Assembly: GCF_000196115.1 (NCBI RefSeq)
Contig: NC_005027.1
Span: 2,418,001-2,482,000 of the forward strand
Origin: Rhodopirellula baltica SH 1
GTDB taxonomy: Bacteria > Planctomycetota > Planctomycetia > Pirellulales > Pirellulaceae
Direction: 5' to 3'
Length of the DNA stretch: 64,000 bases
A program made the translations under genes and the position numbers. How positions within the stretch are numbered: the first letter of the stretch is position 1; every line of letters starts with the position of its first letter. Under the pieces are notes generated by a model that saw nothing but the letters and a program-made list of their open reading frames with translations, was not told the origin of the DNA and made no database searches. Below, piece by piece: positions 9,190-64,000 of this stretch.

Positions 9190-9678
9190 ATGAATGAACT
9201 TTATCGATACGAGAGTCGGCAGCGTCGAACCTCAATGATCTTGCTGGTAAACATGGTTGTCCTGCTGACGATGTACCTCGCTGCACGGATTTTCATTCCC
9301 TCGTCGGAAGAAAGCGAGCAACTTTTCTTCTGGCTGAACATCGTTACTCCGCTGGTCGAAGTTTGCTTATTGCTCGCCGCCATCTACCTCTGGGTCAAAA
9401 ACGAGACGTTCCGGATGGTCGTGACAAAAGATACTTTCGAAGTGTTCGATCCGCTCTCTCGGACCTTCACGTTCTCCGTTCCCGTGCATGAGATCGTCGA
9501 GATCAAGCAAACTCACCAGGCCAACCATAGTTCCATCGTGATGAAAACCGCCACGGGCGATCGATTTCGCCTTACACAAAACTATCACTACAGCCGAACG
9601 AAACTCTACGCGGCGTTGGCCAAGGTCAATCCAGACATACGCTTGCCGAAAAGTGCTTGGCGATTCAGCCGATCCTGA
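9190..9678 (+). CDS. Membrane protein with two TM segments and a PH-like C-terminal domain
   Basis: This 162-residue protein has TM segments at about 16-35 and 48-69. They are followed by a roughly 85-residue beta-rich cytoplasmic domain (F-E-V-F-D-P, V-P-V-H-E-I-V-E-I, D-R-F-R-L-T) resembling bacterial PH/YcxB-like domains. AAGGAT upstream of the ATG supports the start. No neighbour shares its strand closely, and function is unknown. Confidence 0.75.
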   Translation: MNELYRYESRQRRTSMILLVNMVVLLTMYLAARIFIPSSEESEQLFFWLNIVTPLVEVCLLLAAIYLWVKNETFRMVVTKDTFEVFDPLSRTFTFSVPVHEIVEIKQTHQANHSSIVMKTATGDRFRLTQNYHYSRTKLYAALAKVNPDIRLPKSAWRFSRS

Positions 9679-9925
9679 ATCCTGTTGCACACAGCGGCTC
9701 GATCGTAAATCGCGTTACTTGATTCTTGCGATCGGCATCCGATCGACACTCTTCGCTGCATCCCGCCCGTCGATTCTGAAAAGCTGCCGGTTCTCAATGA
9801 GTTTCTAGATGAATACTCGGTGTGCATCCACGCACAAAAACGGTCCAGCGTTTACCACTTGCATGACGGTTCAGTAATTGCATGACAGAGGCTGGACTCC
9901 GCCCCTTCCTCAAACAGAGACTCCG

Positions 9926-46603: not shown

Positions 46604-46985
46604 CGGGCATTCATCTGCTCCGTTTGGGCGTTCGTCCATGTCGTGCGTGGGAATCGTGGCGGAGGCCAAACGACTTGCCGGATCGCACCCAATAGGCCGG
46701 ATCAAGGAACAAAGAGACGCCGCTCCGGCAATCCGCCCTGCAACCTGCGGGAACAGCGCTTCGCTCGGTCCGGCCTACAATTTCTCTCGCGCACCAGCCC
46801 TTACCGGCGACCATGAAAAGGGGATTGCAAACAAAAGATCGATGGTCTCAACAATGCCCCCGTCATTCTTTCTTTGGCTTTGATTTCGCCGACAGCGAGG
46901 ACACTCATTGCCAATACTCGTTTAGTTCCCAAAGGATGCGAGATCTGTCAAACCATCAACCTCTGGCAAGTTATACGTGCAATCA
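46604..46985. other. 382-bp gap with a single TAGGCC repeat unit
   Basis: A unit related to the 37.6-kb array runs from about 46692 to 46779: TAGGCCGGA (46693-46701) and TCCGGCCTA (46769-46777) are exact complementary ends. Nothing else recognisable is present. Confidence 0.6.
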
Positions 46986-47273
46986 ATGAAGCCAAAATCC
47001 ACTCGCCCCACCATGTACGACATCGCGGGGATGATTGTCGCCACGATGTTCTCGGTTGTGGTTGGCTTTCTACTGGGCGCTGCATTTGCAGTTGGACTTG
47101 GTGTGTACAGCCAAGCACAGAACCCGAATGATGCGTCTGCCGGCAGCGTAGCGATCATCGCTATATTCACTGGTCCGTTGTTCGCATTCGTCGGCGGACT
47201 GTTTGGACTCGTTTCATCGGTGAGCTTTTTCATGAAACGACGTGAAGGGATCGATGCGACAAAGCGTGAATAA
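46986..47273 (+). CDS. Hypothetical two-TM membrane protein
   Basis: This 95-residue protein has TM segments at about 11-35 and 50-76 and a basic C-terminus (F-M-K-R-R-E-G). A GTG at 46977 is an alternative start. No family recognised and no clear ribosome site. It lies just before the IS4-family element. Confidence 0.55.
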   Translation: MKPKSTRPTMYDIAGMIVATMFSVVVGFLLGAAFAVGLGVYSQAQNPNDASAGSVAIIAIFTGPLFAFVGGLFGLVSSVSFFMKRREGIDATKRE

Positions 47274-47510
47274 CGGAACCATTCGACAGGAACGGCGAGA
47301 TACCCGCGACTTCGTTTCTTCGAAAGCTGGATGAGCAAAGTCAGAGTAGAACCGTTGTCCTCAACTGTTCCGTCGAGCAAACCTCCACCGCGAATCCTCT
47401 TTGCAACTGAGTCCCTGTCAAACCGTTCGCGTCATGCCGCTCGACGACAGCGGCCAGCCACGCAAACATTTGGGGACAAATGTTCTACTCTCATTCCATG
47501 CTCGACCTCC

Positions 47511-49285
47511 GAAAAGGGGACGGGGGCAATAGTGTTCGGCCCGACGTTTGCCGGCCGACGCTGAATTGCTAGTATCGATAATTTGGCCTGTCTTCGCTCG
47601 CTGGGCGAGAGTGTCTCGTTCGTGCTTCAAGGAGACTGGCGGGCAGTTGCGATGATGTGAAACATTCACTGGTTTGCATCCGCCAGAGTCGAGAGGCGTG
47701 AAACCGGTTTGGCTCATGCGTCGATCTTGCTTTACTCCTGCGTTGAGCGGGCAATCGTTGGTTTGCCATGCCAACCAAAACCAAGCGACTCAAAAGACGA
47801 AAGCTTCCTGATGACCAGGGCGAGCGAACACAGGAATCTCTCGTCAAGCCAAAGATCAAAATCGAAGGCCTCAAATACTTCGCCATGCTCAAGCCCCTGC
47901 TCGAGCATCTTCACGAACATGAGTGCCAGCGTGATACCGCTGGTAACCGTACGCTGCACTACGATCAGTATTGCATGCTCGTGTTGCTGTATGTCCTGAA
48001 CCCCACTGTCTCAAGTTTGCGAGCAATCTCGCAGGCCAGTGAGTTGACGAAAGTACGTAACAAACTGAGCAACGAGAAAGCTTCGCTGGGATCGCTATCC
48101 GAAGCCGGTGGGCTGTTCTCTGCAGACCATCTCAAGCCAGTCATTGAGGCCTTGTCTGCTGAAGTCAACGATGCTGCCCCGGACCCGCGACTGAGCAGCA
48201 TTCAGCAAACGATCACCGCCGTGGATGGCTCACTTGTCAACGCGTTGCCGTCGCTGATTGCCGCATCCATTCTGAAGCAAACAACGGGCTCAGCGCTGGT
48301 GCGATGGCGACTACACACACACTTTGAGGTCAATAACCTGCTGCCTGCGCGAGTCGACGTGACACCTGATGGCGGTGGGCAACACGATGAACGGGCCGTT
48401 CTCAAACGAGTGCTCGAAGAAGATCGCCTGTACGTGATGGACCGTGGCTATGCCAAGTTCTCGCTCTTCAATTCAATCGTCGCGTCATCGAGTAGCTATG
48501 TTTGCCGACTACGTGACAACACGGTTTACGAGACGACTCAAGAACTTGAGTTAACCGAAGGTGACCGTGCTGCGGGGGTACTCAGCGATACGATAGTAAA
48601 GCTTGGAGGATCGAGCAGCAGCTCAAATTCCCCTGATCATCCGATCCGGTTGATCCAAATCCGCTGCACGCCTCATCAAAACCGCACTGGCGGAAAGGCG
48701 AGAGGTTCCAAGGCCCCCAACAGCGATGGGATCCTTCGCATTGCCACCAATCTACTGAATGTACCTGCTGAAATCATTGCCCTGATCTACGCCTACCGAT
48801 GGACAATTGAAATCTTCTTTCGGTTCTACAAGCAACTGATGGGCGGCGATCACTTGATCAGCCACAACGCCAATGGAATCCAGATTCAAGTCTACTGTTC
48901 GGTGATTGCCTGCTTGCTGATCAACCTGTGGACTGGATCTCGCCCCACGAAACGAACGTTTGAAATGATCAGCTTCTACTTCCAAGGCTTAGCCACTGAA
49001 GAGGAGCTGATTGCTCACATCGAAAAGCAAGCAGCTGCAGAAGAGGCAAAGCGTGTCAAAGAGGAGCGTAAAGAAATTTGCTAATCGGCGTTGCGGGAGG
49101 TCATTTTGCCTGACTGGTCTCGGCATGAATGCTGCGCGGTCCCAAACACAAAAACGCAACGGCCCTGGGCAAGCCGGATCGCTTCGCATCCTTCGCAATG
49201 AACCCACACTCAACTCGCCAACCATCCGCCAATATTCCAGCCCGGCAAACGCCGGGCCGAACACTATTGCCCCCGTCCCCTTTTC
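47511..49285 (+). mobile_element. IS4-family insertion sequence with long inverted repeats
   Basis: The left end GAAAAGGGGACGGGGGCAAT continues AGTGTTCGGCCCGACGTTTG and CCGG. The right end (49243-49285) is its reverse complement over about 44 bp with one visible mismatch. Between them lies one intact transposase gene, for a total of about 1775 bp. No target-site duplication is obvious (CTCGACCTCC on the left, CTAAAGCTCC on the right). The near-perfect ends suggest a recent arrival. Confidence 0.85.
47768..49084 (+). CDS. IS4-family DDE transposase
   Basis: This 438-residue protein has the YREK signature Y-A-Y-R-W-T-I-E-I-F-F-R-F-Y-K exactly spaced as in IS4 (Y-x2-R-x3-E-x6-K). A-V-D-G-S gives the first Asp and V-M-D-R-G-Y-A the second. 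The C-terminal coiled coil (I-E-K-Q-A-A-A-E-E-A-K-R-V) is charged. The reading frame is intact. It fills its element with short flanks. Confidence 0.93.
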   Translation: MPTKTKRLKRRKLPDDQGERTQESLVKPKIKIEGLKYFAMLKPLLEHLHEHECQRDTAGNRTLHYDQYCMLVLLYVLNPTVSSLRAISQASELTKVRNKLSNEKASLGSLSEAGGLFSADHLKPVIEALSAEVNDAAPDPRLSSIQQTITAVDGSLVNALPSLIAASILKQTTGSALVRWRLHTHFEVNNLLPARVDVTPDGGGQHDERAVLKRVLEEDRLYVMDRGYAKFSLFNSIVASSSSYVCRLRDNTVYETTQELELTEGDRAAGVLSDTIVKLGGSSSSSNSPDHPIRLIQIRCTPHQNRTGGKARGSKAPNSDGILRIATNLLNVPAEIIALIYAYRWTIEIFFRFYKQLMGGDHLISHNANGIQIQVYCSVIACLLINLWTGSRPTKRTFEMISFYFQGLATEEELIAHIEKQAAAEEAKRVKEERKEIC

Positions 49286-49813
49286 CTAAAGCTCCCTCTC
49301 TCCATCTTCACCCTCTAGGCAGAAGGGTCGAGCGAGGGGAGGTCGAACGGTGACTACCCGGTTCAGTGTCGATCCGAACCAAAACTCAACCTGTTGACTA
49401 CCACGAAACACACGAAAGCACTTCTCCGAGCATTTCGCATTCCGGTCAACGAAATTGAAAAGAAGTCGATCAAGAAACCTAGTGAGAACTCAACCATGCC
49501 GACCCCAACTTTCTCTCGTCCACGTCGGAATGATTAGTGTGCAATGAGCGAAGATCAGTGTTCTCTTCAACAGGGACACTAATCGGCACTGATAGACACT
49601 ATTCTTTGCGCGGTCCTGTTGGTGCGAGAGACCAGAATGGGAACAGTGGGCAACAACCAAAGCACGCCGCACATTCCACCAAATCTCCCCCTCTCCATCT
49701 TCATTCTTCAGGCAGCAGGATCGCGCAAAGCGAGGGGAGCCGAGTAGGCCGGATCAAGGAACAACGTGACGCCGCTCCGGCAGTTCACCCTCCAATCTAA
49801 AAAGGGGACGGCC
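49286..49813. repeat. 528-bp gap of dispersed repeat units
   Basis: Unit 1 (49291-49438, from CTCCCTCTCTCCATCTTCAC to ACGAAAGCACTTCTCCG) recurs at 51730-51889, and in shortened form at 49690-49745 and 53038-53070. An ATTAGTGT/GATCAGTGTT palindromic unit (49532-49615) recurs at about 4508 and 52876. A cut TAGGCC unit lies at 49744-49790. No gene. Confidence 0.75.
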
Positions 49814-51289
49814 CTAACGGGATGCGTCTGTTGCCTTCTTTGGTGGCGTTGGCCACACGTGGGAATGTGCGGTGAGCTCTTTGTAGTAAGCGTTCAGCTT
49901 GCGTTCCAAGGCCTTGGTTCGTTCAGGATCCTGTGCCGAAACGTCGGTGGATTCGTTGATGTCCTGAGTGACATCGAAGATCTGAATGTCCGTCAGGTTT
50001 GCCTGACGGGCTTGGTCAGCGTTCTGATCCGAAATGTTTTGCAGCTTGGGAAATTGGCCATGGTTGAGTTTCGCAAGCACTTTCAACTTGCCGTCCCGCA
50101 TGGCGACTCGCTGTTCGTTGATGGCGTTGTAATAGATCCAAAAGAGCGGCTTGGGGCGTTGTGCGGCTGGGTCAGCGAGCAGTGGCAAGACATCGGTGCC
50201 ATCGAGTTTCAAGTCGGAGGGAATGGAGGCACCTGCTAAGCGGCAAAAGGTGGGAAGGAGATCGAGCGACGAAACGACCGTATCAAGCGTTTGGCCGGGT
50301 TCGATTTCCCCGGGCCAGTTGACGATTCCTGGCACACGAAATCCGGCTTCGGTTGTATGCAATTTCATGCCACGCAGCGGCCCCGGTGAACCGTAGGAGC
50401 GATTAGCACTGCGGTATCGATCGAGCGTTTCGGGGCCATTGTCAGACGTGAAAACGATCAGCGTGTCATCCCGTTTGCCAAGTTCTTCGAGCCCCTTCAC
50501 CAACCGACCCACCGCCGCATCGACATTGGCAACATTGGCGAAGTACTGGGCCTCGTCTTCGTCCACCGCAACGTTCCGGTACTGCGCGACGAGTGCTTCC
50601 GGCGAGGCGACGGGTTCGTGAGGTTCATGAAATGGCAGGTAGAGAAAGAAGGGTTGGTCTTTTTCAGAACGACGGTCCAACCACTGCAAGGCTTCGGTCA
50701 CCACGAACTGACAACTGAACTCATCAACCTTCCCGATCGGTTTGCCGTTGCGAACAAAGTTTTTTGGGAATTGATGAGAGGGCGCCGCGTTGTTTTGGGT
50801 TGCCAGGTAGTGATCGAAACCAAAGTCATCGGGCTGCGGTTGAGCGGGGTCGTTGAAGCGAGAGTTGCAGTGCCACTTGCCCGCCATGCAAGTGGCGTAT
50901 CCCGCGTCGTTGAGCAATTGCGCGATGGTGATTTCATGGTCACGCATGTGAACTTGGTCGCGAGCGTCTGGTCGTGGGTTCCGGGCTTCGGGGATCCAGT
51001 CATAAACGCCAGCTCGATTGGGGCTGCGTCCGGTCAATAGCCCAACCCGCGAAGGCGAACAAACGGGGGCCGCCGAATAGCAATTTGTCAGCCGGATGCC
51101 GGTGGCCGCCAACTGATTCAGGTTGGGAGTTTTGATGTGGGGATGGCCGAAACATTCCAGGTCGCCGTATCCCAGATCATCGCAGAGTACGATCACAAAA
51201 TTGGGGCGTTCGGCTGCCCACGTTGAATGGTTGAACAGGGCCGACGCGAGGAAAAAAGAGACACTGAGGGCGATTGCAATTGATTTCAT
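49814..51289 (-). CDS. Secreted type I sulfatase
   Basis: This 491-residue protein has a signal peptide (1-25, T-W-A-A-E). R-P-N-F-V-I-V-L-C-D-D-L-G-Y-G-D, the formylglycine motif C77-S-P-S-R, A-G-K-W-H and F-T-S-D-N-G-P are all present. It belongs to the same broad sulfatase class as the pair at 32.5-35.5 kb, but sits alone between repeat-rich regions. Substrate unknown. Confidence 0.94.
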   Translation of the reverse strand: MKSIAIALSVSFFLASALFNHSTWAAERPNFVIVLCDDLGYGDLECFGHPHIKTPNLNQLAATGIRLTNCYSAAPVCSPSRVGLLTGRSPNRAGVYDWIPEARNPRPDARDQVHMRDHEITIAQLLNDAGYATCMAGKWHCNSRFNDPAQPQPDDFGFDHYLATQNNAAPSHQFPKNFVRNGKPIGKVDEFSCQFVVTEALQWLDRRSEKDQPFFLYLPFHEPHEPVASPEALVAQYRNVAVDEDEAQYFANVANVDAAVGRLVKGLEELGKRDDTLIVFTSDNGPETLDRYRSANRSYGSPGPLRGMKLHTTEAGFRVPGIVNWPGEIEPGQTLDTVVSSLDLLPTFCRLAGASIPSDLKLDGTDVLPLLADPAAQRPKPLFWIYYNAINEQRVAMRDGKLKVLAKLNHGQFPKLQNISDQNADQARQANLTDIQIFDVTQDINESTDVSAQDPERTKALERKLNAYYKELTAHSHVWPTPPKKATDASR

Positions 51290-52253
51290 GAAAGCATTCT
51301 CGGTTGAAAGTCACGGTGATCCGCCTGGGGATCGATCCCGGTCACGAGGAAGGCGACTCGCTGGACCGATATCGATCACACAGCCGCCAGGACGCGTCGT
51401 TGTTCGAGCTCTTGATCGTTTCCAAACGTCCGGGCGGTTGATTCGAAAACCATCATAGATAATCTCAGCGACGGGCGTACAACCAACGTGTTGCCAAACG
51501 ATCAAGCATTCCCGGCGAGCGCAGTGACGACGCAATCAGTCACGGCAAAACGGAATGACAGCACGGCTGAACGTGAACGCTCGCAGCTCTGCATCGATCA
51601 CCGCCTCGACGACGGATGGGGCTTTGCGACAATCCCGCAAGCTGCCAACCAAATACATCAAAGCGGACGGGGAAGAAAACGAATGAAGGACTCAACAATG
51701 ATCCCCGTCGCCCATTCTTCGCCTGATTCGCCCTCTCTACCTTCACCCTCCAGGCAGGAGGGTCGAGCGAAGCGAGGGGAGGTCGAACGGCGACTGCCCG
51801 TTTCATCTTCAACCCCGTCCAAAACTCAAACAGTTGCCTATCACCAAACAGACGACCGACACGAAAGCACTTCTCCGAAAACTTTCCTCTGCAGTTGAGC
51901 AAATACGCAGGTGTCATCGGGTATGTGAGCCGTTGGCGTTGGCCAAGGTTTTCACGCGCAACCGAGGCTAACGCCCAAACGGCTCACATGGTTGTGCCCG
52001 ATCATTCCAGCCGACCTGCATAAACAACCACTCACGACACGTGAGTGTTCATACTTCCGCGTCGCCTTCAAGTAGGCCGGATCAAGGAACAACGTGACGC
52101 CATTCCGGCATTGGGATTGTGAATCGTCAAAAGATCGCCACGCTCGATCCGGCGTGCAATCGAGACGCCACGTCACTCACCTCGGTGGAAGGCTGGTACC
52201 ATTTGGCAATTCGTTTCGACAGCCCGCCTCGCTTTTTCAATCGCAGTCGTTCC
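51290..52253. repeat. 964-bp repeat-rich gap
   Basis: Second copy of the 49.3-kb unit at 51730-51889, with ACCCTCC/GGAGGGT arms. A palindrome at about 51920-51990 has GTGAGCCGTTGGCGTT at its left and AACGCCCAAACGGCTCAC at its right. A TAGGCC unit lies at 52072-52157. A 136-codon frame (51488-51898) runs through a repeat and is not credible. No gene. Confidence 0.7.
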
Positions 52254-52739
52254 ATGTCTCAATCGCCAGTCATCGATCCGACCCAAAGCCAGCCTTCGTT
52301 TCAGCAGGAACGCAAGAAGTCCAATTCCGGTTGCATCGTGGCTGGCGTGGTTGGCGGTTGCCTGATTGCCGTCATGGTCTGCGGCGGTGTCATCGCCACT
52401 GGCGTGGTAGGAGCCTTTGCGTTGATCAAATCCAGCGAACCGTACACCGAGTCGCTGGCCAGAGCACAGACCAACGAGGAACTGCAGTCAATGATTGGAG
52501 ATCCCGTTGATGCATCGATCTTCGTTCAAGGCAGCATCAAACTTAATAACGATGACGGTAACACGGACCTCAACTATTCGGTCAGCGGACCGAACGGAGC
52601 GGCCACCGTTCACGTGACGGGAACGAAGCTGGATGGAAACTGGGACTACAGCAGGATGGACGCGACCACCGAGGATGGAACCAAGATTGATCTACTGGAC
52701 GAGCCCACAAGCGAAAACGGCAGCGAAGGCGACCAATGA
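52254..52739 (+). CDS. COA1-like single-TM protein
   Basis: This 161-residue protein has a Ser/Gln-rich N-terminus, one TM segment (about 30-54, G-C-I-V-A-G-V-V-G-G-C-L-I-A-V), and a domain with Y-T-E-S-L-A-R-A-Q-T-N-E-E-L, I-G-D-P-V-D, G-S-I-K-L and Y-S-V-S-G-P-N-G-A-A-T-V. This is the layout of the cytochrome oxidase assembly protein 1 family, common in planctomycetes. It is bracketed by two nearly identical 86-bp TAGGCC repeats. The ATG at 52254 lies within a longer open frame. Confidence 0.72.
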   Translation: MSQSPVIDPTQSQPSFQQERKKSNSGCIVAGVVGGCLIAVMVCGGVIATGVVGAFALIKSSEPYTESLARAQTNEELQSMIGDPVDASIFVQGSIKLNNDDGNTDLNYSVSGPNGAATVHVTGTKLDGNWDYSRMDATTEDGTKIDLLDEPTSENGSEGDQ

Positions 52740-53119
52740 GATCTCGTTTCGAACGGCTCGGCCGAAGACCCTGTGTTCAAAAAAGTAGGCCGGATCAAGG
52801 AACAACGTGACGCCGCTCCGGCATTGGGATTGTGAATCGCCAAAAGATCACTGCACTCGTTCCGGCCTGCAACCGCCTCATTCGCGTGCGATGAGCGAGG
52901 ATCAGTGTTCTCACTCACCCGAACCTTCATCGGCACTGATCAACACGAATCTTTGCGAGGTCTTATCGATAATTGAGACCACAATGGGAACGGCGGACAA
53001 CAACCAAAGCACGCCCCACGTTCCAGCAAATCTCTTAACTCCATTGTCACCCTCCAGGCAGGAGGGTCGAGCAGCCTTTCTATTGATGTCGCTTTTCGGC
53101 TGATTTCCTCATGGCGTAC
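52740..53119. repeat. 380-bp gap of repeat units before the IS66 element
   Basis: TAGGCC unit at 52785-52870 (direct repeat of 52072-52157), GATCAGTGTT palindromic unit at about 52876-52965, and a short CACCCTCCAGGCAGGAGGGT unit at 53048-53067. No gene. Confidence 0.7.
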
Positions 53120-54625
53120 CTCTCCCAAAACGAAGTGTACTTGTTTACCCAGCGAAAAACTGGTGTTGGTGAATTTGGCCTGAATCGACCACAATTCGCG
53201 GGTCATGGATGTGCCCAAGATCACCACCGATTGCCCGGATTGCAAGCCGCTGCTTGAGAAGCAGCAGGCGATCATCGACATGCTGGTCAAGCAAGTTGAG
53301 TTGCTCACGGCACGTCTTGAGAAAGTTGAACGCGAAGGTAAACGCCAAGCGGCTCCGTTTCGCAAGAAACGCAAAGCCGATCCGAAAAAGCCAGGGCGTA
53401 AAAGCGGTGAAGATCACGGCAAGCACCATCGCCGAGCCGTGCCCGAACAGATCGATGAAACGTACGACGTTCCCCTACCAGCGTGCTGTCCCGACTGCGG
53501 CCATGGCGAACTGACCAAGACCGAAACGCTCGTGCAGTTCCAAACCGATATCCCTCGCGTCGTCATCAACCGGCAATTCAACATCGACGCTGGAATTTGC
53601 TGTGGCTGTGGATCTCATGTCCAGGGTCGGCACAAACTGCAAACGTCCGACGCGGTCGGAGCCGCCGCGGCTCAACTCGGACCGAACGTTCACGCCGCGA
53701 TGGCGCTTTTGAACAAAGAACTTGGGCTCAGTCACGGCAAGGTCAAGCGTCTGCTGGAAATGCTTTTTGAGATTCGGGTCAGTCGCAGCACCAGTTGCCG
53801 AAGCATGCTTCGCACCGCTGATCGACTAGAGGACGCCTACGCTCAGGTCCGAAGGGCCGTGCGTGGTTCGCCTCAGGTGGTCGGAGATGAAACGGGTTGG
53901 CGAGTCGATGGACGTGGGGCTTGGCTTCATGCGTTCGTCGGACTGACCGCGACGTGTTACGAAGTGGATGCGACGAGAAGCATCGGGCCGGCGGAAAGAC
54001 TGCTGGGCATCGACTGGTCGGGAATCTTTGGACACGACGGCTGGGCGGTCTATGACAAGTTCACCGCAGCGACTCATCAACAATGCTTTGCGCACCTGCT
54101 TCGGCGATGTGAATCGTTAATCCAAAGCGGGACCAGTGGTGCGTTGGCGTTTCCGCGTGGAGTGAAAGACTTGCTGCTCGCAGGCTTCGAGTATCGCAAC
54201 CGTTTTCGATCCGATGAGATGACGGCACATGGGATGAAGGTGATGGCGGGCCGATTGACGATGAAGATGTGGAAATTGGTTCGTCACCCAAAGAAGCATG
54301 CTGCCAATGAACGCTTCGCGAAGTTTTTGGAAAATCATCTCGATGATCTATTCACGTTCCTGCACCGTCCCGGTGCCGACGCAACGAACTGGCGAGGCGA
54401 GCAGGCGATCCGTCCGGCGGTCGTGAATCGAAAAGTATGGGGCGGCAACCGCACCGAAGCCGGAGCATTGGCCCAGTCACGAATCATGAGCGTGATGCAA
54501 ACGTGCAAGCAAAGACTGGCCGATCCTTTCGACTTCATCCGCTGTCAATTGACCACGACGAGCCCGCTTGCCCTGCCTCTGCCCATCGCGGCACGGTAAA
54601 CAAGTACAACGAAGTTTGGGGAGAG
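53120..54625 (+). mobile_element. IS66-family element, single transposase gene
   Basis: Left end CTCTCCCAAAACGAAGTGTA followed by CTTGTTTACC, and right end GGTAAACAAGTACAACGAAG followed by TTTGGGGAGAG, are imperfect inverted repeats of about 30 bp. The element is about 1.5 kb and lacks the accessory tnpA/tnpB genes of classical IS66. It ends 105 bp from the stop of the reverse transcriptase gene. Confidence 0.82.
53205..54599 (+). CDS. IS66-family transposase
   Basis: In this 464-residue protein, an N-terminal coiled coil (K-Q-Q-A-I-I-D-M-L-V-K-Q-V-E-L-L-T-A-R-L) is followed by a basic K-P-G-R-K-S-G region and a zinc-finger segment (C-C-P-D-C-G, C-C-G-C-G). The DDE core has V-V-G-D-E-T-G-W, G-H-D-G-W-A-V-Y-D-K-F and R-G-E-Q-A-I-R-P-A-V-V-N-R-K-V-W-G. 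The frame is intact. The length and motifs fit the IS66 (ISBst12-like) group. Confidence 0.93.
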   Translation: MDVPKITTDCPDCKPLLEKQQAIIDMLVKQVELLTARLEKVEREGKRQAAPFRKKRKADPKKPGRKSGEDHGKHHRRAVPEQIDETYDVPLPACCPDCGHGELTKTETLVQFQTDIPRVVINRQFNIDAGICCGCGSHVQGRHKLQTSDAVGAAAAQLGPNVHAAMALLNKELGLSHGKVKRLLEMLFEIRVSRSTSCRSMLRTADRLEDAYAQVRRAVRGSPQVVGDETGWRVDGRGAWLHAFVGLTATCYEVDATRSIGPAERLLGIDWSGIFGHDGWAVYDKFTAATHQQCFAHLLRRCESLIQSGTSGALAFPRGVKDLLLAGFEYRNRFRSDEMTAHGMKVMAGRLTMKMWKLVRHPKKHAANERFAKFLENHLDDLFTFLHRPGADATNWRGEQAIRPAVVNRKVWGGNRTEAGALAQSRIMSVMQTCKQRLADPFDFIRCQLTTTSPLALPLPIAAR

Positions 54626-54730
54626 CGATCTACTAGGTCGAGCGACGCCGTTCAGGCGTACGCGAGGGTGAGGGCCGGGCATGGGAAACGGCGCGGACAG
54701 CCCTCCCCTTTTCTTGGCCGACGGGCGTGA

Positions 54731-57700
54731 TCAAAACCGCTTCAAGTTCGCAGGTGGCGTCTTCATATGTTGCTGACCGTTCTTGTAGAGTTTAAAGTCA
54801 AGTTCAAAGAACCCGATCGCAACCTGTTCATTGCCATGAGCATGGAAGATCGTTCGCTGAAAGGGTTTCTTAAAAGGGGCGTGAGCGCTTGATCCGCCGA
54901 ATTCACCTGTGTTTGCAACGACGACGTGTTGGAACATGTGATAGTGCAGAGCAGCAGCCATGTTATCGAAAGTTCCGACATCCTGGTTTAATGCAGGCAC
55001 GACGAACATTTCAGTGTGGTCGCGCAGGTCCGCCGCCAGACTGAGGTCGGTCGCATCGTAACAAATGGCACTTGACATCGCCCAGAGCTTGTTATTGCGT
55101 TGCAACGGATCGACCAGCCAAAACACCCATTGCGTGGGGCGGAAAGGTGAGACTCCCAAGTCCTTCTCTTTCTGGGTCAGATTGTGCTTGCCTTGATAGA
55201 TTTGCTCAATATGCAGTCCTCCCGTTCGTTTTTGAATTGGGATGAGCCATGCGGCAATATTTATAGTTCGAACGTCGGTAACCGACACTGGATGAAACGC
55301 AATTCCCGTACAGACCATGCAGCGATTGCGACGGACGAACGGAATGACCAACGCCTTGACATCATCTGGGTGCAGTGCGAGCTCTGGCAGTACCAGTAGT
55401 TCAATCTCAGCTTCGCCAGCGACGTGAGTTGTGCGGACTTGCAGCATGTTTTCTACCGCTGCGAGCACAGATGCTGCGTGTCTCCGGTGTCGTCGCCGAT
55501 AGTCTGGATCGTTTAGCTGAAGATCTTTTTCAAAGTCTGCGTGGCGAGGCATTGCGGTTTGTGCGATAGCAACTCGCATTGACATTAGCTGAGCATTGCG
55601 TTCGTTGTCCAATCCGATCCGCTTCGCCTTGACCTTCTTGGGGACACGAATCGGAATAATACTTGCCTTTGCGGACTTTCCATAGAGGCGTTCCAAGCTG
55701 TCGATGCGACTCTTCAAGAGCTTGAGTAACTCAGTATCAGTAAAGTTGAGGGGGACCAGCGAATCGAACTGCGGGAAACCAGGCCATCTTAATAAGGCAG
55801 TGAGCAAGTCACCGATCCAAGGTGACACAGGCATCCATGCCGGACCAAACGCCGACCGGCCGTTGAACATTCCATACCGGCGGCGCAGCCAGCTAGAGCG
55901 GTAAGGGCGATACATCACTTTGCTTCGTGGTCGAAATTCTCGGCAGTCCTGCGTATAGTCCGGCTTACCAGTGAGCATCACACGAAGGAGCATACCTAGT
56001 TGATACGCCCAATGATGCTCGTTTGGAATCCACGATGGCAAGCGAAACCGAATGTCATCCGAACTTTTTGATCGCAGTTCAACTTGAAAGCAGTCTTCAT
56101 TGACTGGAAAGTTCTCCGGTTTAAGCAACTCCCAGTTTGGTGCTTTTATGCAAACTCGATTTGGGGTGACTGGATCTTCCGATTCGACAAGCAAGGGAAT
56201 CAACTTTACCGCGAGCCAGACCAGAGCATAGTCCTGTCGAAACGGATTTGCGGAAGAGCATGCAACATCCAAAAGGGGATGCAGAACGTCAGGTTTGAGT
56301 GTTCCGTTCGATTGAGTGCAGTTCTCACCCGCCAGAACACCGTAGTTCTCAAAAAGGTTCCGCCACTGATCCTTTTCGCCTTCGGTGAGAATGTTCCATA
56401 TCGCCAGCGCAAGAGCCTGTTGTTCTTCAAGGATCTGCATTAACCAAGTCTGCTGTGCTGTGCCCGGGCTAGATCGCCATCGCTCCAGGAATGCAATCGC
56501 AGCCATTTCAGGCGATCGAAGCTGAGAATGAAAACAGGCGAATGCACTCACTCTTGACTCGGGAACTTCCTCATAGCTTCCGCTGCACACTTGCCGGAGC
56601 AGGGTGTAGTTTACTTCACTAAGAGGTGGCTTATTAGTGAGGTCCGGAGAGTCATAGCCGACGAGACAGGCCAGGAACAGTTGAGCTTGTTGAAGCAAAT
56701 ACCAAGGATACCTAGAGCGATTCGCGACAATATCCTCTGCCAGCTCCGCGAGTTTCGCTTGGTATCCGGAAAGATCGGCATGCCGTGGCAATTTGTCTTC
56801 ATCGTTGACGAGTCCTGTCTCGGTCGCTCCCGCCTTCAGTAGCTCAGCCGCACAATAGAGCACGATCGTTCGCCGATCACTCTTGCGACGACTCAAGTGT
56901 TCCCGCATCAGTTCGAGTATCAACTCGAGATTCGCAACACAAGGATTAAGGTCAAGCGCAACTCGCAGTATCCGCATACTTGACGGATCACGTACCCATC
57001 GTTCGATCAAAATACCGGAAAAATGTTCCGCTTTCGCGTCGAGGGTCACTTGGTCGATGGCAGTTGGTTGAGGACTTCGACCACTCCAATCAGTTTCTCC
57101 TTCTTGTAACTCTTCGGTCAGTTCAAACTGTTTGTCCATTTCCGGTTCGCTCATCGGACGGAGTGTACGATAGGCAGTCCGAAAGCGATGGGCCGCGAAC
57201 CGCGAAACAGTTTCTTCTCGAACGTCTGGTTGTGAATCCAGAATCGTGCCCTCAAATCGCTCACCAAAGTCCAGAGGTTTTGATCGCGTTGAATAGAACA
57301 ATCCTTCAATAAGATCGAGTGTCTCCTCTCCTCGAAACATATCCATGACGCTCGATGCGTTTCGGCTAATACGACTCATAGCCATCGAGAATCGCGTTGA
57401 GCCTCCACCAGCGTTCGTTCCTAGAAGCACAGAAAGTTTGCTTTCCTTTGCCAACAGACCGGGGGCATGCTGAGCAAGAGACGTCTTTAGCATGTCAGAG
57501 AACGACTCTTTCAGGATTTGTTCTTGAGCAGCAGAGGATTTTGCAGCGAATCGACTGTCGAGGCGAACCACAAATCGCATATCGTCCACGTATCGGCAGT
57601 AGTCGACATATTGAAAACAGTCGTCTACTCGCGTCTCCCTGTACTTGCTGACCATGTCGCGGTCGAAATCGATCAGCACGAGGTTGGCAAAAAAGCCACT

Positions 57701-58540
57701 CGACACCAATCCCTGCGGCAGCGCAATCTGATCGTATCCAGCAATCTCTGGTGACGAATTCGTGGCGTACTTAATCGCTTCCGCTTTGTCATCAGCGTGC
57801 CAACTCCAGTTGAAGAAGGTGCTTAAAGCGTCTAGCAATTTCGAGTCTGCTACATCTCCAAGCAAATTTCTGAGTTTTGAATGAAGCAAGCTCGGTCGAA
57901 CCCGATCGTAGAACTGAGACAAGTCGGCGGTGATGACCGCCCAGGCAGTGTCGCCGTCAGGAAAAGTGTCGGTAACGATCGCTTGAGGACGACGAATGAA
58001 AGTTTGGTAGTCTTGGAAGTACTCACGATAGACAGTTGAGTTTCCCCATCGATAATTTAGTAGATCGTCTTCATTGTCACAGAACAGACGGTGCCCGTAA
58101 CTAACCATCCCCTTCTCGTTTGCACTTCGTATGCTTTGACGAGGATCGCCCTGAGCAGTTTCGACTGCATTAGCTACCAAGATCATCATTGCAGTGGAGA
58201 TTATTTGGTCTCGCACCGACGGATGCGCCAGCGGACGCATTTTCGAATTCACTTTTTGGTCCGTGAGCGGTTGCCACTTCTGATTTTTGATCTCCCATTG
58301 CTGGCTTTTCGGGGCAAGCACTAGGCGAATTGGATCTGGTACTGGAAACGTCTCGTTCGAGAACTCGCTCGCTACTCGATCAACTGTTTCACTGATCGCC
58401 GCATTGGTTAAATCTAGCTCCAGAACATCGGAGTACCAATTGTGTCGCCGGATATAGTCGTGCGCTTTTTTCCAAGCCGCCACGATGAGGTATTCCTGTG
58501 AAAGGTGTCTGTGTTCTGAACTGAGTTGAATGTTGTGCAT
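54731..58540 (-). CDS. Defence-associated reverse transcriptase fused to nitrilase (DRT type 1/UG1-like)
   Basis: This 1269-residue protein has an N-terminal reverse transcriptase (about 90-390): Asp206 in I-T-A-D-L-S-Q-F-Y, LPQGLVSSGFFAN (274-286) and catalytic Y-V-D-D at 317-320. A helical alpha-rich middle (about 500-960) has no motif I know. The C-terminal nitrilase domain (about 988-1250) has a complete triad: Glu1053 (L-P-E-L), Lys1118 (Q-G-K-H-N), Cys1160 (S-A-I-C-Y-D). This RT-nitrilase layout is that of UG1 DRT type 1 anti-phage proteins. It lies downstream of a membrane protein gene on the same strand and beside an IS66 element. Confidence 0.93.
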   Translation of the reverse strand: MHNIQLSSEHRHLSQEYLIVAAWKKAHDYIRRHNWYSDVLELDLTNAAISETVDRVASEFSNETFPVPDPIRLVLAPKSQQWEIKNQKWQPLTDQKVNSKMRPLAHPSVRDQIISTAMMILVANAVETAQGDPRQSIRSANEKGMVSYGHRLFCDNEDDLLNYRWGNSTVYREYFQDYQTFIRRPQAIVTDTFPDGDTAWAVITADLSQFYDRVRPSLLHSKLRNLLGDVADSKLLDALSTFFNWSWHADDKAEAIKYATNSSPEIAGYDQIALPQGLVSSGFFANLVLIDFDRDMVSKYRETRVDDCFQYVDYCRYVDDMRFVVRLDSRFAAKSSAAQEQILKESFSDMLKTSLAQHAPGLLAKESKLSVLLGTNAGGGSTRFSMAMSRISRNASSVMDMFRGEETLDLIEGLFYSTRSKPLDFGERFEGTILDSQPDVREETVSRFAAHRFRTAYRTLRPMSEPEMDKQFELTEELQEGETDWSGRSPQPTAIDQVTLDAKAEHFSGILIERWVRDPSSMRILRVALDLNPCVANLELILELMREHLSRRKSDRRTIVLYCAAELLKAGATETGLVNDEDKLPRHADLSGYQAKLAELAEDIVANRSRYPWYLLQQAQLFLACLVGYDSPDLTNKPPLSEVNYTLLRQVCSGSYEEVPESRVSAFACFHSQLRSPEMAAIAFLERWRSSPGTAQQTWLMQILEEQQALALAIWNILTEGEKDQWRNLFENYGVLAGENCTQSNGTLKPDVLHPLLDVACSSANPFRQDYALVWLAVKLIPLLVESEDPVTPNRVCIKAPNWELLKPENFPVNEDCFQVELRSKSSDDIRFRLPSWIPNEHHWAYQLGMLLRVMLTGKPDYTQDCREFRPRSKVMYRPYRSSWLRRRYGMFNGRSAFGPAWMPVSPWIGDLLTALLRWPGFPQFDSLVPLNFTDTELLKLLKSRIDSLERLYGKSAKASIIPIRVPKKVKAKRIGLDNERNAQLMSMRVAIAQTAMPRHADFEKDLQLNDPDYRRRHRRHAASVLAAVENMLQVRTTHVAGEAEIELLVLPELALHPDDVKALVIPFVRRNRCMVCTGIAFHPVSVTDVRTINIAAWLIPIQKRTGGLHIEQIYQGKHNLTQKEKDLGVSPFRPTQWVFWLVDPLQRNNKLWAMSSAICYDATDLSLAADLRDHTEMFVVPALNQDVGTFDNMAAALHYHMFQHVVVANTGEFGGSSAHAPFKKPFQRTIFHAHGNEQVAIGFFELDFKLYKNGQQHMKTPPANLKRF

Positions 58541-58779
58541 CTGTTGCCTTAGATCTTGGTCCTTAATCAGCGGAAGTGATTTGCCTCGCGTGATTGCGTG
58601 GGATGTGATACATGATTCCGTTCGATTACTGCGATCTCAATCCATCGTGGGGTTCCCTGTCGACTAAGAAGAGGGAACAAGAAGAAAGGGGGATGGGGAA
58701 AAACGACGCATCATGTTATTTGAACCCCGTCCCCTTTTTGCATGTCCATTCTCATTTTTGAAAAGCATGCAAAATTTGG
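58541..58779. other. Gap between the RT and membrane partner genes
   Basis: On the minus strand, arms at 58725-58738 (AAAAGGGGACGGGG) and 58685-58698 (CCCCATCCCCCTTT) can pair with one G-T mismatch, then CTTCTTG. This may be a terminator of the membrane gene or an old insertion-sequence end, since the IS4 ends start with the same word. The rest (58541-58680) probably holds the RT promoter or any RNA that belongs to the system; no clear ncRNA was seen. Confidence 0.4.
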
Positions 58780-59475
58780 TCATTCTGCTTCTTGCTCGGA
58801 AATAAAGGCTCTAAGAATGAAATCATTTTGCCGCCGAATAAGCTTGGTGAAGTTGACGTAAAACGCAGCGGAACATGTGATTGAAGCAAGCATCCAAAAG
58901 TTATCGGACACCAGCGTCTTTCCTGTGAGAGATGCCGTCGACCACTCCGGACAAAGTGGGTATAGGGCAACAATGAGAAACGCGAAGCTCGCGTTGCGAC
59001 AGAATCCATACAGCTCAACAAAGTGCATGCCAGTTCGGTATGACATGGGCATGTTTTCTGCGATGTAGGCCCATACGGTCCAATAGACGTCGTGCGTTCT
59101 ACGACGTATCGACCAGTTTCGGAAAGTGACGCCAAATCGTTGTTCGAAACGTTTTTGAATGAGGCGAACCATTCTCGGGTCAAACGGATGACAGAAACCT
59201 GGAAGCAGATCCAGACGACGTTCCGCCCAATCACCCAAGAACTCCACTGACCGGTAAGCCCAGCCAAATTTTCCTTTGGTTGGTAGCTCACGAACCAGAG
59301 GCCATCGCACGATGTTGACAACTCGTATCGCAATTTGACGACCAAGCGTACCGGCGAAGTGGCCGCACAGAAATTGATTGAGCGGGTACCCAAACGACAA
59401 ACGAAGAAGGCACCTCTCAAGCAAGAAGCTTGATGCACCGGAGAGAATGTGCCCTACGACATAGACGACGATCAA
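58780..59475 (-). CDS. Multi-TM membrane protein, probable DRT1 partner
   Basis: From a TTG at 59475 this frame gives 231 residues with hydrophobic segments near the start, near 155-175 (C-R-N-A-S-F-A-F-L-I-V-A-L-Y) and near 195-210. Before the TTG the frame stays open to a stop at 59689-59691, and its residues Y-F-W-P-Y-D-I-F-G-Y-L-L-P-G read like the natural start of a membrane protein. No ATG, GTG or TTG precedes them in frame. DRT type 1 loci usually carry a membrane-protein gene next to the RT-nitrilase gene, and this position fits. The C-terminal half is basic and cytoplasmic. Confidence 0.65.
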   Translation of the reverse strand: MIVVYVVGHILSGASSFLLERCLLRLSFGYPLNQFLCGHFAGTLGRQIAIRVVNIVRWPLVRELPTKGKFGWAYRSVEFLGDWAERRLDLLPGFCHPFDPRMVRLIQKRFEQRFGVTFRNWSIRRRTHDVYWTVWAYIAENMPMSYRTGMHFVELYGFCRNASFAFLIVALYPLCPEWSTASLTGKTLVSDNFWMLASITCSAAFYVNFTKLIRRQNDFILRAFISEQEAE

Positions 59476-59691
59476 TAACGCGACGTTGCCAGCAATGGAT
59501 TCAGCTTGATAACGGGCCTCGAAGACTGATCTTACTCCACTATGAAACGCGATCAGGGGCGCAATCGCGACGCTTCCAGGAAGCAGGTATCCAAAAATGT
59601 CATACGGCCAGAAATATGTTTTGGGTTCAGAGTTTATTGAATCGTCTTCAGGTTTGGGTAGTGGCAGGCAGATCGATGCAAGTGGTGTTCA

Positions 59692-60855
59692 GTGCGTCGT
59701 ACTTGCCGCGCATTTAGGTGAAGACGTGCATTGGGTGGTGCCTTGTTGGAGTTCTTGAGGGATTTTGGTTTGGTGCGATTCGGGGCGATGATTTCGGTGG
59801 CGGTGCCGAAGCGGAAGATGTCGGTTTTGATTTTCTTTCTGCTGGTGAGCGTGATGCTCGCGTTGAGATTGCCGCTCGGATCAGGTGGCGTTGTTTGCTT
59901 CGCGTTGATGTTGCGCCCGGCTGAGTTGTATGCCGCACTGCCTCGGTAACGCATCCGGAGGGGCATGAGGAGCTTGACGATCGATTCGCGGGACAGACTG
60001 CAGGTCTTCAGGCCAGGCCGGCAGACGTTTTCCTCGATCGCGACTCGCAAGTCGGGCAGTCCCGCGTGGTCGCGGCGGACCGTCTTGTTGCTGACACCGA
60101 ACGGTGTCGCAAGCAAGTTCGTGGTCGCTTCGTCCGGATCGAGTGTGACCCATCGCAGTGAATGTGGATGACGCTTCCGCTGCGTTCCCGTGCTCATCAA
60201 CCTTAAATCCCGCCTTCCGCCGTCGTGGCGCTGTCCTGTGTTCTCTACCTGCATGCGCTTCAAAATTCGCAACGCCGTGAATGTAGCAGATCATCGACTA
60301 ACCGGGGGGGCGAGACGGACAGCATGTGTCCAACCTTTGGGAAACCTAGTCAGCTTGCTAACCTGCGAACTCGCCCACTCCGCAAATCATCGATGAAATG
60401 CGTCTGCCTCAAAGTTTGCAACCTCGACGATTTGCAAGGATGAATCTCGACGCGATCGCCAGCAGACCAGGACGTGCGCCGTCAGTTTCCGATCGCAGGC
60501 AATCCGGACTCAGGCATCCAGATCAGAGGTAGTGGTGAGTGCCATTCACCGAACGCAATGCCTTCGACTGGGACGGACGCTCCGGCGTCAGGCACCGGTG
60601 CACCGCTCTGGCTGCCTTGGTGGGCCAGACGGAACTGATTGCAGCTTTTAAACTGGTGTGCCGAGAAGCGATTTAGTCCAGTCTGATTTCGCCGCCAACA
60701 TCGATCGACTGAACAAAGTCGCGATCGTGGCCCACGACGACCATCGCGCCCGCCAACTCGCAAGCGCCAGGATCAAATTCGGAGAACGCCACCAAACCGA
60801 AACTCAGAACGGTGCGTTGACCAAAGCGGCTCCGGCTTCATCGATCAGCGATTGC
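59692..60855. other. 1.16-kb region without a confident gene; possible decayed DNA
   Basis: Long but mutually overlapping frames exist on both strands. None resembles a protein I know, apart from a minus-strand stretch at about 60670-60870. There L-I-D-E-A-G-A-A-L in one frame and E-L-A-G-A-M-V-V-V-G-H-D-R-D-F-V in another recall the end of an ABC-F ATPase, with stops or frameshifts between. A run of eight G lies near 60303. The region looks like eroded accessory DNA. Confidence 0.35.
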
Positions 60856-61062
60856 TTAACGCATCAATTGCGAAATCCGCAGGATTCGAAACAGCTTCTG
60901 AAGCATTTTGGCTCGGTGGATGCGTCGATCAGCTTCGCCTTCCACCCACAACTTTCGCGAATAGAGATCACGTTCTTGGTAGCCACACGTCGGGCAACTG
61001 TCTTCGCTCTGGCTCATTTCCTTGAGGCAGCACGGGCATTTTGTTTGAGCTTGGTTGGGCAT
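60856..61062 (-). CDS. Small zinc-ribbon protein
   Basis: This 68-residue protein has two knuckles, C-P-C-C and C-P-T-C-G-Y, about 15 residues apart, then a basic helical tail (R-R-I-H-R-A-K-M-L-Q-K-L-F-R-I-L-R). GGGAG six bases upstream supports the ATG at 61062. Probably metal-binding; role unknown. It lies downstream of the rhomboid gene on the same strand. Confidence 0.68.
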   Translation of the reverse strand: MPNQAQTKCPCCLKEMSQSEDSCPTCGYQERDLYSRKLWVEGEADRRIHRAKMLQKLFRILRISQLMR

Positions 61063-61183
61063 GGATGGCTCCCGGTAAAGACGGTCATGGATGAATCTTC
61101 ACTCGCATCGCAACGTTGAAAGCGAAGGTGATGGAGGCGGTGTTGATAAAAAGACTTGCCGGACGGTTTCCTGGCGAATTCTG

Positions 61184-62371
61184 TCACGACATTGATTCGG
61201 TCGTGCCAGCCTTAAGTTCGCGAAGTTGAGCGTTCGCTGCTCGCAGAAGTTTCTTCCGCGCGTTGGCGACTTGTTCCGTCAGCGGTGACTTCATCTTTGC
61301 CAGCACTTTGGTCGCCGCATGCGGATCGTCGTTGTGCCGAAGTTCGATCAGGGCAATCTGCAGAAGTGCGTTGTTCGAAACCTTCGACTGCCGAGTCGAG
61401 AGAAAGCGAAGCGGCAGAAGCCGATCCGCGTGTCGATTTGCTTTGAGAAGTTGGTTCGCATAAGCCACCAATGCCGCATCGGGAACCGCAGCGACGCAAG
61501 AGTGTTCGCGCAGACGGGCAAACGATTCGATCGCCTCGTCGATGCGATTGGCGTGAACTGCTCGGGTGAATGACTCGAACGCAGTCGCACAAGGGTCACG
61601 CGCGGGTCGCGTTGATTCGACGTTGTTGGGATTACGGTATCGATGGCTTTCCACTGCTGCGGGCAACGATGGCAAGTTGGCATCAACACGACACTTGCCG
61701 GCTGGTTCGTCTTCGCTCTGATCTGATTCACGGCTCGCGATGAAGGTTTGGAACCCAAGACGCGAAAACAGGACCCAGCCTTCGCAGTCGACCAACTGAT
61801 GCTTGAGCATGAGAAATGCAAATGGGATCCCGACCGACATCCCCAGCAGGTGCAGCATGGGTGTCGACATTTGGATTCCCGTCCAAGCGACTTGCAGGAA
61901 TTCGATCGCAAAGTACAAGATCGCGACGACGCTGATTGGGATGTCGATCGTGCCACAATAGAACCAACTCCACATGTAAAAGAAGTGGATGTCATTCTGC
62001 GGAGCCCAGATCACCGCCACAGCGAGCAACGCAAAGATCACACCGGACGCACCGAGTGCACCGCCCTGACCGTCGCTGAACATGAACATCGGAATCTGCC
62101 CGATCGCTCCGTCGGAGAGCGCCAGCCCCAGATAGAGCAGGCTGAACCTCTGCCAACCCAATTTGCCCTCGATGACGAGGCCGAAGCACCACAAGAAAAC
62201 CATGTTCCCAATCAAGTGGGACCAGGACGCGTGCATGAACGCACTGGTCACCCACTGAAACGGATTGATGCGGTCAAATTCGAGAATCAGCCAATCGTGA
62301 GCGCCGTATTCCCCCATTCCTGTCAGCAGGAACAACCCCGTGTTGGCAGCAATGATACCGATCGTCGCCAC
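61184..62371 (-). CDS. Rhomboid-family intramembrane protease (possibly N-terminally disrupted)
   Basis: From a GTG at 62371, 395 residues: six or seven TM segments with the rhomboid signatures H-A-S-W-S-H-L-I-G-N-M, serine in G-A-L-G-A-S-G-V-I-F-A, and H-L-L-G-M-S-V-G-I-P-F. A soluble C-terminal domain (about 210-395) with helical-repeat character follows. Immediately upstream, an ATG at 62416 reads M-F-L-P, then TAA, then G-T-D-A-P-V-Y-H-Y-P into the gene, so the natural start seems to carry a nonsense codon at position 5. Function would depend on the GTG or read-through. Confidence 0.8.
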   Translation of the reverse strand: MATIGIIAANTGLFLLTGMGEYGAHDWLILEFDRINPFQWVTSAFMHASWSHLIGNMVFLWCFGLVIEGKLGWQRFSLLYLGLALSDGAIGQIPMFMFSDGQGGALGASGVIFALLAVAVIWAPQNDIHFFYMWSWFYCGTIDIPISVVAILYFAIEFLQVAWTGIQMSTPMLHLLGMSVGIPFAFLMLKHQLVDCEGWVLFSRLGFQTFIASRESDQSEDEPAGKCRVDANLPSLPAAVESHRYRNPNNVESTRPARDPCATAFESFTRAVHANRIDEAIESFARLREHSCVAAVPDAALVAYANQLLKANRHADRLLPLRFLSTRQSKVSNNALLQIALIELRHNDDPHAATKVLAKMKSPLTEQVANARKKLLRAANAQLRELKAGTTESMS

Positions 62372-62650
62372 CGGATAGTGATAGACAGGAGCGTCGGTAC
62401 CTTAGGGTAGGAACATCGATATCCACTGAAACGAATTGAAGATGGACTGCTATCTATCCAGGCATCAAATCCGCGGACACGGGGCGCGCGATGAGAAAGC
62501 GAAACCGAACTGCCGGAGATGACACCACGGAAAGCGATGCTCTCGGGTGAGCCAGCCGACTCCGGAAAACATCACCTGGCTACAACTGCGACAAGAGAGG
62601 TGTTAGCATGCTGCAGACGTTCCAACCAACAAGAAAGGTGTTTCAAACGC

Positions 62651-63142
62651 ATGCTCCGAAAACCTGAACACGAGTCGAAGATCGCCACACGACGCATGGA
62701 TCTTCGTTACCCCGACCTGGGCGCCGCGTGTACCGACATCGCTCGCTTGCGTGAAGGAGGCTACGAACTCGTTGGCACTTGGAGCCTGGCGCAGATACTC
62801 GATCATCTGAACTTGTCGATGCAGATGACGATTGACGGTGCCGACTTCACGTTCCCGGCATTGATGCGGCCGGTGATGAAATGGATGTTCATGCCGACGA
62901 TGCGGAAAGGCAAACCATCCAAGCTACGTGGGAAGGCGCCGGAGCAGCTTCAACCAGCGATGGACCTCGATGAAGACGCGTGTGCGAAACGGTTCTACTC
63001 GCTCGCGGAGACACTCATGGACCCGTCGACTCCGTTTGTATCGCACTACCCAATGCTGGGACGACTCACCCGAGAGCAATGGCTTTTGATGCAGCAATGG
63101 CACGCTGCCCATCACTTGAGCTTTGTCGTGCCGAACGACTGA
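62651..63142 (+). CDS. DUF1569/DinB-like protein
   Basis: This 163-residue protein has the four-helix DinB-like pattern of DUF1569: G-T-W-S-L-A-Q-I-L-D-H-L-N-L-S-M in the middle, H-Y-P-M-L-G-R-L-T-R-E-Q-W and W-H-A-A-H-H-L-S-F at the end, with His residues in metal-binding positions. AGGTG upstream of the ATG at 62651 supports the start, although the frame is open from 62519. It could be a metal-dependent thiol-transfer enzyme; the substrate is unknown. Confidence 0.8.
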   Translation: MLRKPEHESKIATRRMDLRYPDLGAACTDIARLREGGYELVGTWSLAQILDHLNLSMQMTIDGADFTFPALMRPVMKWMFMPTMRKGKPSKLRGKAPEQLQPAMDLDEDACAKRFYSLAETLMDPSTPFVSHYPMLGRLTREQWLLMQQWHAAHHLSFVVPND

Positions 63143-63586
63143 GATGTGCACCGACGTCGCTGTCAATTTATTCGCATGAGCCAACGAAGCCGTGGCCGGT
63201 CCACGGAATCCGTTCGCCAAGAGTTTGCTCCTAGGAAGTTTGCTGGTTCAATCGCCCGAGAAAGAGTCAGCAGGCGGGCGTGGCGGCTTTCCAATCCTTC
63301 TGATTCTCGGTGAGCATCGCGACCGGTGGCTGACACGGTCGGCCAGGCGCAGTCAACGCTCAATGCCAAGTTACCGCAATGCCCAGTTGCTACGAGCGTG
63401 GGTGAAGAGTGGAAAACCAGGCCGAGCCTCGGCCAATCTTTCGGGTTCAGACTTCCCGGGCAACATGCTTTGGCCCCGCTCAAAAACCACCTGCTGATTC
63501 CCTTTGGGGTGTATTTGGATGGTTCCAAGTCCACCCGGCGAGTCGAGTCGCTGCCGTTTGAATGCGGAAAACACGGTGTTTTTGAG
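63143..63586. other. 444-bp gap without a gene
   Basis: Frames here are inconsistent shadows on both strands. Just after the tRNA 3' end, AAAACA-cgg-TGTTTT (63568-63582) is a small hairpin that might act as its terminator. Nothing else was found. Confidence 0.4.
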
Positions 63587-63660
<74 letters not shown>

Positions 63661-63892
63661 GTTGGAAAGATGGCGGGCAGCCAATTCGAAATCGGCTGCC
63701 ACGACCTGCGACAGTATGCCGAGATTTGCTTGCGGTGGCAAGCCGGACAGATCGACTTTCATTTGCTATCTTTTCGGGCTCGGTGACGAGATCGTTTTCG
63801 CGATTTCTCGGCCTGCAAACTTGATTCCAGATGCGATCGCTCGCATTGGTTTTTTGGACGTTGTGTAACGGGCGTGTGGTTTTGTTCTGGGG

Positions 63893-64000
63893 ATGGATGT
63901 GAGTCGATTGAATCGCAGTTGCCTGCGTTGGAGCGTTTTGACTTTCGTATCGTTCGCGGCATTCGGATGGATTGCTCCGCGTGTCGATGCGGCGGGTTCG
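63893..64000 (+). CDS. Secreted protein, 3' truncated by window end
   Basis: An ATG at 63893 opens a frame to the window edge: a basic N-region (M-D-V-S-R-L-N-R-S-C-L-R), a hydrophobic core (V-L-T-F-V-S-F-A-A-F-G-W) and a cleavage-like V-D-A-A-G. This is a clear signal peptide. GGGG lies shortly upstream. The mature part is outside the window, so no function can be given. Confidence 0.6.
   Translation, partial: MDVSRLNRSCLRWSVLTFVSFAAFGWIAPRVDAAGS

Follow-up and report, generated by a model that had tools for sequence, protein, structure and literature searches.

Which kind of reverse transcriptase is encoded by a long nitrilase fusion gene of Rhodopirellula baltica SH 1, and does it need a partner to act against phages? 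The gene, here called drt1, lies on the reverse strand of a window of 64,000 nucleotides (contig NC_005027.1, positions 2,418,001 to 2,482,000), and encodes a protein of 1269 residues that joins a reverse transcriptase (RT) to a C-terminal nitrilase. A sequence-only reading of this DNA had proposed a type 1 defence-associated reverse transcriptase (DRT1) locus of two genes, the RT-nitrilase fusion and a membrane protein. Profile, alignment, and phylogenetic analyses strongly support drt1 as a complete DRT1 gene (UG1, class 3 UG/Abi RT). They also suggest, with a probability of about 85%, that its product is an anti-phage protein, most likely working as published for the homologue of known structure (PDB 9yfd). 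The membrane-protein frame upstream is probably an unrelated neighbour.

The drt1 frame starts with ATG and runs through 1269 codons without an internal stop. A profile search against RT and nitrilase models, which the sequence-only reading had suggested as a check, placed Drt1a far ahead of the other RT families. Residues 1-1265 aligned to positions 1-1175 of the 1176 in the PADLOC Drt1a profile PDLC03745 (E=0, 1200.7 bits), with no notable difference seen. A second Drt1a model scored 484.1 bits and the RT-associated nitrilase model 251.1 bits. The next-best RT family in PADLOC was UG5-nitrilase, which likewise combines an RT with a nitrilase; its score (129.5 bits) was about one ninth of that of Drt1a. 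In the PDB, phmmer found one match at E<=1, which was 9yfd, "Defense-associated reverse transcriptase 1" (residues 10-1268, E=6.9e-132). The RT part, the middle, and the nitrilase each retrieved 9yfd separately; the first 380 residues alone gave 3.6e-51, and the last 320 alone 1.7e-54. Pfam matched RVT_1 alone, below threshold (28.2 bits against a cut-off of 29.6). The protein combines an RT and a C-terminal nitrilase in a single chain with a full-length profile match, as expected of a DRT1. Within its own genome, its sole match was itself. It also matched phrog_1423 (reverse transcriptase) in PHROGs at 1.1e-116, which shows that there are phage-borne relatives; tblastn of a collection of phage records found no DRT1 at E<=1e-10.

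The catalytic residues are all in place. Fifteen DRT1 proteins were aligned (the window protein with L002-L006, L021-L025, and L031-L034; the DRT1 loci L026, L035, L080, and L081 were left out). D206 and Y317-V318-D319-D320 of the RT core, as well as E1053, K1118, and C1160 of the nitrilase triad, occur at the positions given in the sequence-only reading and are identical in 15/15 proteins. E1125 is likewise identical throughout, and would be the fourth residue of a nitrilase tetrad. Position 396 is serine in 14 of the 15, with glycine in L032. K1260 and A1264 of the C-terminal tail are both present in 14/15, with a gap at L003. In the alignment to 9yfd, D324/D325 correspond to D319/D320 of the window protein, S402 to S396, C1116 to C1160, K1219 to K1260, and A1223 to A1264. 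In the published system, D324N/D325N, C1116A, and S402A abolish defence, and K1219A and A1223F strongly reduce it (PMC13275509). By this comparison, the residues on which the published DRT1 steps depend are conserved in the window protein.

Residues of about 500-960 had been described as having no assigned role. This no longer holds, since they align with the alpha-helical repeat region of 9yfd (PMC13275509). Residues 480-965 covered 9yfd 474-894 by phmmer (1.1e-17), and a six-row profile of the middle covered 9yfd 468-937 (1.6e-46). In DRT1, this domain lies at the filament periphery and touches the RT between tetramers (PMC13275509). A structure prediction from the six-row alignment agreed in being mostly helical; the model was of low quality (mean pLDDT 69, pTM 0.51). 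On sequence comparison, the middle is an alpha-helical repeat domain of the 9yfd type.

The placement of the RT was examined in a tree of 25 rows, including 15 DRT1 proteins, five group II RTs above the NCBIfam cut-off, four RTs below it, and one UG5-nitrilase. Ten of 17 listed RT frames were used, and Abi and retron rows were left out. All 15 DRT1 rows fall on the same side of one branch (80/89), which was recovered in 82% of 200 bootstrap trees; this support is modest. The window RT joins L006 (91/73), then L002 (99/95), and then L003 (96/90). This subset of four rows is better supported than the whole DRT1 group, and stands apart from the five group II RTs. The UG5 row is a fragment on a long branch, with 22% of the columns filled, and the tree program warned that long branches meet among the unclassified RTs. 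An RT from another group (a group II intron, retron, Abi, or UG5-nitrilase RT) might have gained a nitrilase independently. The RT core is common to all groups, the protein has weak matches to many RT profiles, and UG5-nitrilase too carries a nitrilase. However, the profile scores for Drt1a and UG5-nitrilase differ widely, and the window protein scored far below the NCBIfam cut-offs for group II (35.9 bits against 300) and retron St85 (34.7 bits against 235). Grouping with group II introns, retrons, or Abi families had been named as an outcome that would overturn the DRT1 assignment: the tree and the score argue against group II, and the St85 score argues against retrons, while the tree, which holds no Abi or retron rows, puts the RT with DRT1. 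The chance of such an origin appears negligible.

The published mechanism offers a proposal for the window gene. The DRT1 of 9yfd synthesizes DNA without a template, with S402 serving as the primer (Neville et al. 2026, PMC13275509). Its tetramers stack into filaments, and the C-terminal tail closes the nitrilase site. All five T4 escape mutants were changed in the dda helicase gene; dda is necessary but not sufficient (PMC13275509). The window protein resembles this homologue in the order of RT, helical repeats, and nitrilase, in its nearly end-to-end alignment, and in the active-site, priming, and tail residues; it differs in being distant in sequence and in its planctomycete-type host. By analogy, the window RT would add short untemplated DNA to S396, and the DNA-bearing protein would form tetramers that stack into filaments. 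The swapped C-terminal tail would keep the nitrilase site shut. Phage replication would then open the filament, and the nitrilase would act on a metabolite and halt the cell. We infer every one of these functional steps in R. baltica from the homologue. The distance from the tested homologue means that the trigger and the substrate may differ.

The relatives of drt1 are also informative. Several DRT1 relatives lie beside defence genes, including DISARM (L003 and L006), type I restriction (L021 and L023), and CRISPR type I-F, Qat, or viperin genes (L032-L034), which supports the anti-phage reading. The closest relative found was L006, with 56% identity. This locus (L006:87-15125, JADYZV010000176.1, a metagenome-assembled genome of Pirellulaceae) holds DRT1 at 6001-9798 within a DISARM operon, in the order of part of drmD, drmMI, DRT1, drmA, and drmB; the genes share one strand and are separated by short gaps. 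A second DISARM-DRT1 adjacency is seen in L003 (L003:307-6950, JAKAEZ010000055.1, a metagenome-assembled genome of Planctomycetota), where the DRT1 frame (3336) begins 2 bases after drmMI (307-3333); close to the end of the contig, the C-terminus of this DRT1 is truncated or altered. In another genome, Drt1a is split into two adjoining open reading frames (ORFs; L081:3906-7672, G542:C3), one of 827 residues with the RT and the middle, and one of 419 residues with the nitrilase part; the same genome also has a full-length DRT1 copy, L080.

The sequence-only reading had a membrane protein gene before drt1 on the same strand, as in known DRT1 loci. An open frame with hydrophobic segments does lie there, 239 bases from drt1, but neither a standard start nor the likeness to known loci was borne out. 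The frame ends with a stop at 58780-58782 and is bounded upstream by the stop 59689-59691. Its first ATG, GTG, or TTG is the TTG at 59475, which falls within the second hydrophobic segment; none precedes the conserved N-terminus (YDxFGYLxPG), and an ATA is present at 59635-59637. The frame matched phrog_12528 (function unknown) at 1.3e-14 and, weakly, PDC-M48A (0.0039). The 302-residue frame gave no match to the Drt1b models (PDLC03821 and PDLC02172) at E up to 10, in a search where the HMMER filters drop most weak matches. Drt1b is also a membrane protein encoded near drt1a. However, it has 140-168 residues and lies downstream, directly after drt1a in Photobacterium, Vibrio, and Pseudoalteromonas plasmid loci (best E 6.6e-65, 5.5e-59, and 5.6e-59, respectively); the window frame has up to 302 codons and lies upstream. 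The frame was therefore rejected as a Drt1b, given its lack of a profile match, its upstream position, and its different family.

By tblastn, Drt1b-like sequence was found at 3/18 other DRT1 loci, and the membrane family of the window at 0/18. Two genomes contribute two contigs apiece to these 18 loci, and the flanking sequence is short in some of them: L025 has 581 bases upstream, and L003 about 90 bases beyond the gene. Relatives of the membrane frame are weak, with 22-36% identity in the aligned parts. They came from two other genomes among 297 of the class, one Vibrio plasmid (6e-6), and two E. coli phage records (4e-3). No DRT1 was found near them by tblastn at E<=0.001 in seven stretches of 3-14 kb from five distinct records or genomes. 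A search of viral contigs gave eight stretches that matched a pattern, none of which encoded a relative. The YDxFGYL start is common to the frame and four relatives. Three of the four aligned relatives start a few residues before F-S-x-YD-F; in L028 the listed ORF begins earlier, with an ATG at the same place. This little-described membrane family, opening with F-S-x-YD-F-x-GYL (L030:7977-8852, L037:4004-4846, L028, and L029), is possibly a stand-alone defence gene; its Vibrio member shows weak likeness to Csx27 (0.001).

Could the upstream membrane protein nevertheless do the job of Drt1b? It is the next open frame upstream, on the same strand and with hydrophobic segments, and its family has members in a plasmid and in phage records. 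Plasmids and phages often hold cargo genes. However, the negative Drt1b searches, the downstream position of Drt1b where it is found, the absence of the family at the 18 other loci, the intergenic gap, the missing start codon, and the stretches with relatives but no DRT1 all make a two-gene system very unlikely. A version in which translation of the phrog_12528 protein begins at a non-standard codon, for instance the ATA, and the protein replaces Drt1b as a lineage-specific partner and makes DRT1 act at the membrane, is highly improbable. The drt1 product probably works on its own, with neither the membrane protein nor Drt1b as a partner. The interval 50001-64000 holds no Drt1b-like sequence (tblastn with three Drt1b proteins, E up to 0.1), and only 131 bases separate drt1 from the IS66 gene. 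In published E. coli work, DRT1 also gave defence without Drt1b, and drt1b adjoins about 18% of drt1 genes (PMC13275509).

A further possibility is that drt1 is a silent copy, encoding an intact protein that is not expressed, next to a neighbour that lacks a start and to recent insertion sequence (IS) insertions. The IS66 DNA has two further copies in the genome that are 99-100% identical, the membrane frame has no standard start, and the promoter-like sites in 54500-60500 (five) about equal the shuffled mean (3.9). On the other hand, that scan was limited to sigma-70-type sites, and the drt1 frame is complete with its key residues kept, which decay would erode. A silent copy is thus unlikely. 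Three observations weigh against an anti-phage DRT1 of the published kind. The identity of the window protein to four gammaproteobacterial homologues is 28-29%, a figure that refers to these and not to 9yfd. Unlike the relatives described above, the window shows no defence genes near drt1: of the ten adjoining ORFs, one matched a PADLOC model at E<=0.01, and this match was weak (WYL, 0.00069), so by this measure the window does not qualify as a defence island. Finally, a PDB fold search (library up to April 2026) with the poor model of the middle gave no match at E<=0.001, and the 50 rows listed, out of 124, did not include 9yfd; the assignment of the middle therefore rests on its sequence.

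The description of the surroundings as repeat- and IS-rich accessory DNA held up. An IS66 transposase, a DDE transposase, and a dispersed repeat are present, and DRT1 occurs in 1/13 genus genomes, namely this one. The planctomycete setting also agrees with the neighbouring genes (PSCyt1, PSD1, and DUF1501) and with the nearest DRT1 relatives. The GC content is 0.48-0.54 across 54500-59499 in 1-kb steps, and 0.52-0.58 in the rest of 46000-64000. This lower GC content, together with the adjoining IS66 DNA that recurs nearly identically elsewhere in the genome, fits an acquired accessory gene. A DRT1 match was found in 11/297 genomes of the class, seven of them strong (E<=1.6e-110). The Drt1a profile matched in 113/392 genomes of the phylum, five above 500 bits and the next best at 51.3 bits; the weak matches were taken as other RTs, since the profile also matches in 3/14 control genomes. 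In stretches from the four genomes of the genus that matched the rhomboid best, no clean empty site was found; their DNA similarity to the window covers the rhomboid side only, and ends between about 60829 and 61216.

Several smaller features were also noted. A short dispersed repeat (54608-54700) is found immediately 3' of drt1, at the IS66 end, and has at least 35 matches of 27-90 bases elsewhere in the genome. A 93-base direct repeat (52070-52162 and 52783-52875, 89% identical) flanks most of a Coa1-family gene (52119-52739). Upstream of the membrane frame, the reverse-strand ORF 59637-60272 has weak matches to HTH_DeoR (0.0062) and WYL (0.00069), and may be what is left of a decayed WYL-type regulator. 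Only tRNA reached the Rfam gathering scores in 50000-64000. The 239-base gap has no other match in the genome, and no RNA element is claimed in 58640-58770, which lies within the gap and its edge (folding z -1.54, 11/200 shuffles at least as good). The coordinates are collected in the table.

Table. Positions in the window of drt1, its parts, and nearby features.
Feature	Position	Strand	Basis or remark
drt1 (UG1 RT-nitrilase), 1269 residues	54731..58540	-	PADLOC Drt1a; PDB 9yfd (phmmer)
RT part, residues about 75-347	57500..58318	-	D206 codon 57923-57925; YVDD 57581-57592
S396, counterpart of priming serine S402	57353..57355	-	Alignment to 9yfd; function of S402 as in PMC13275509
Middle, residues 480-965, alpha-helical repeat domain	55646..57103	-	phmmer and profile matches to 9yfd
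Nitrilase domain, residues about 988-1269	54734..55579	-	phmmer 1.7e-54 to 9yfd; invariant residues
Nitrilase codons E1053, K1118, C1160	55382-55384, 55187-55189, 55061-55063	-	
C-terminal tail K1260-A1264 (K1219-A1223 of 9yfd, domain-swapped lid)	54749..54763	-	Alignment; role from PMC13275509
Membrane-protein open frame, phrog_12528 family, 302 codons and stop (stop to stop)	58780..59688	-	Judged a neighbour
IS66-family transposase	53205..54599	+	Convergent, 131 bases from the drt1 3' end; context only
DDE transposase	47768-49084		

In summary, one proposed two-gene architecture is removed. With this locus, a defence family with a mechanism published in 2026 gains a complete planctomycete-type member that is distant in sequence, and the residues critical to that mechanism are kept across a wide sequence gap.

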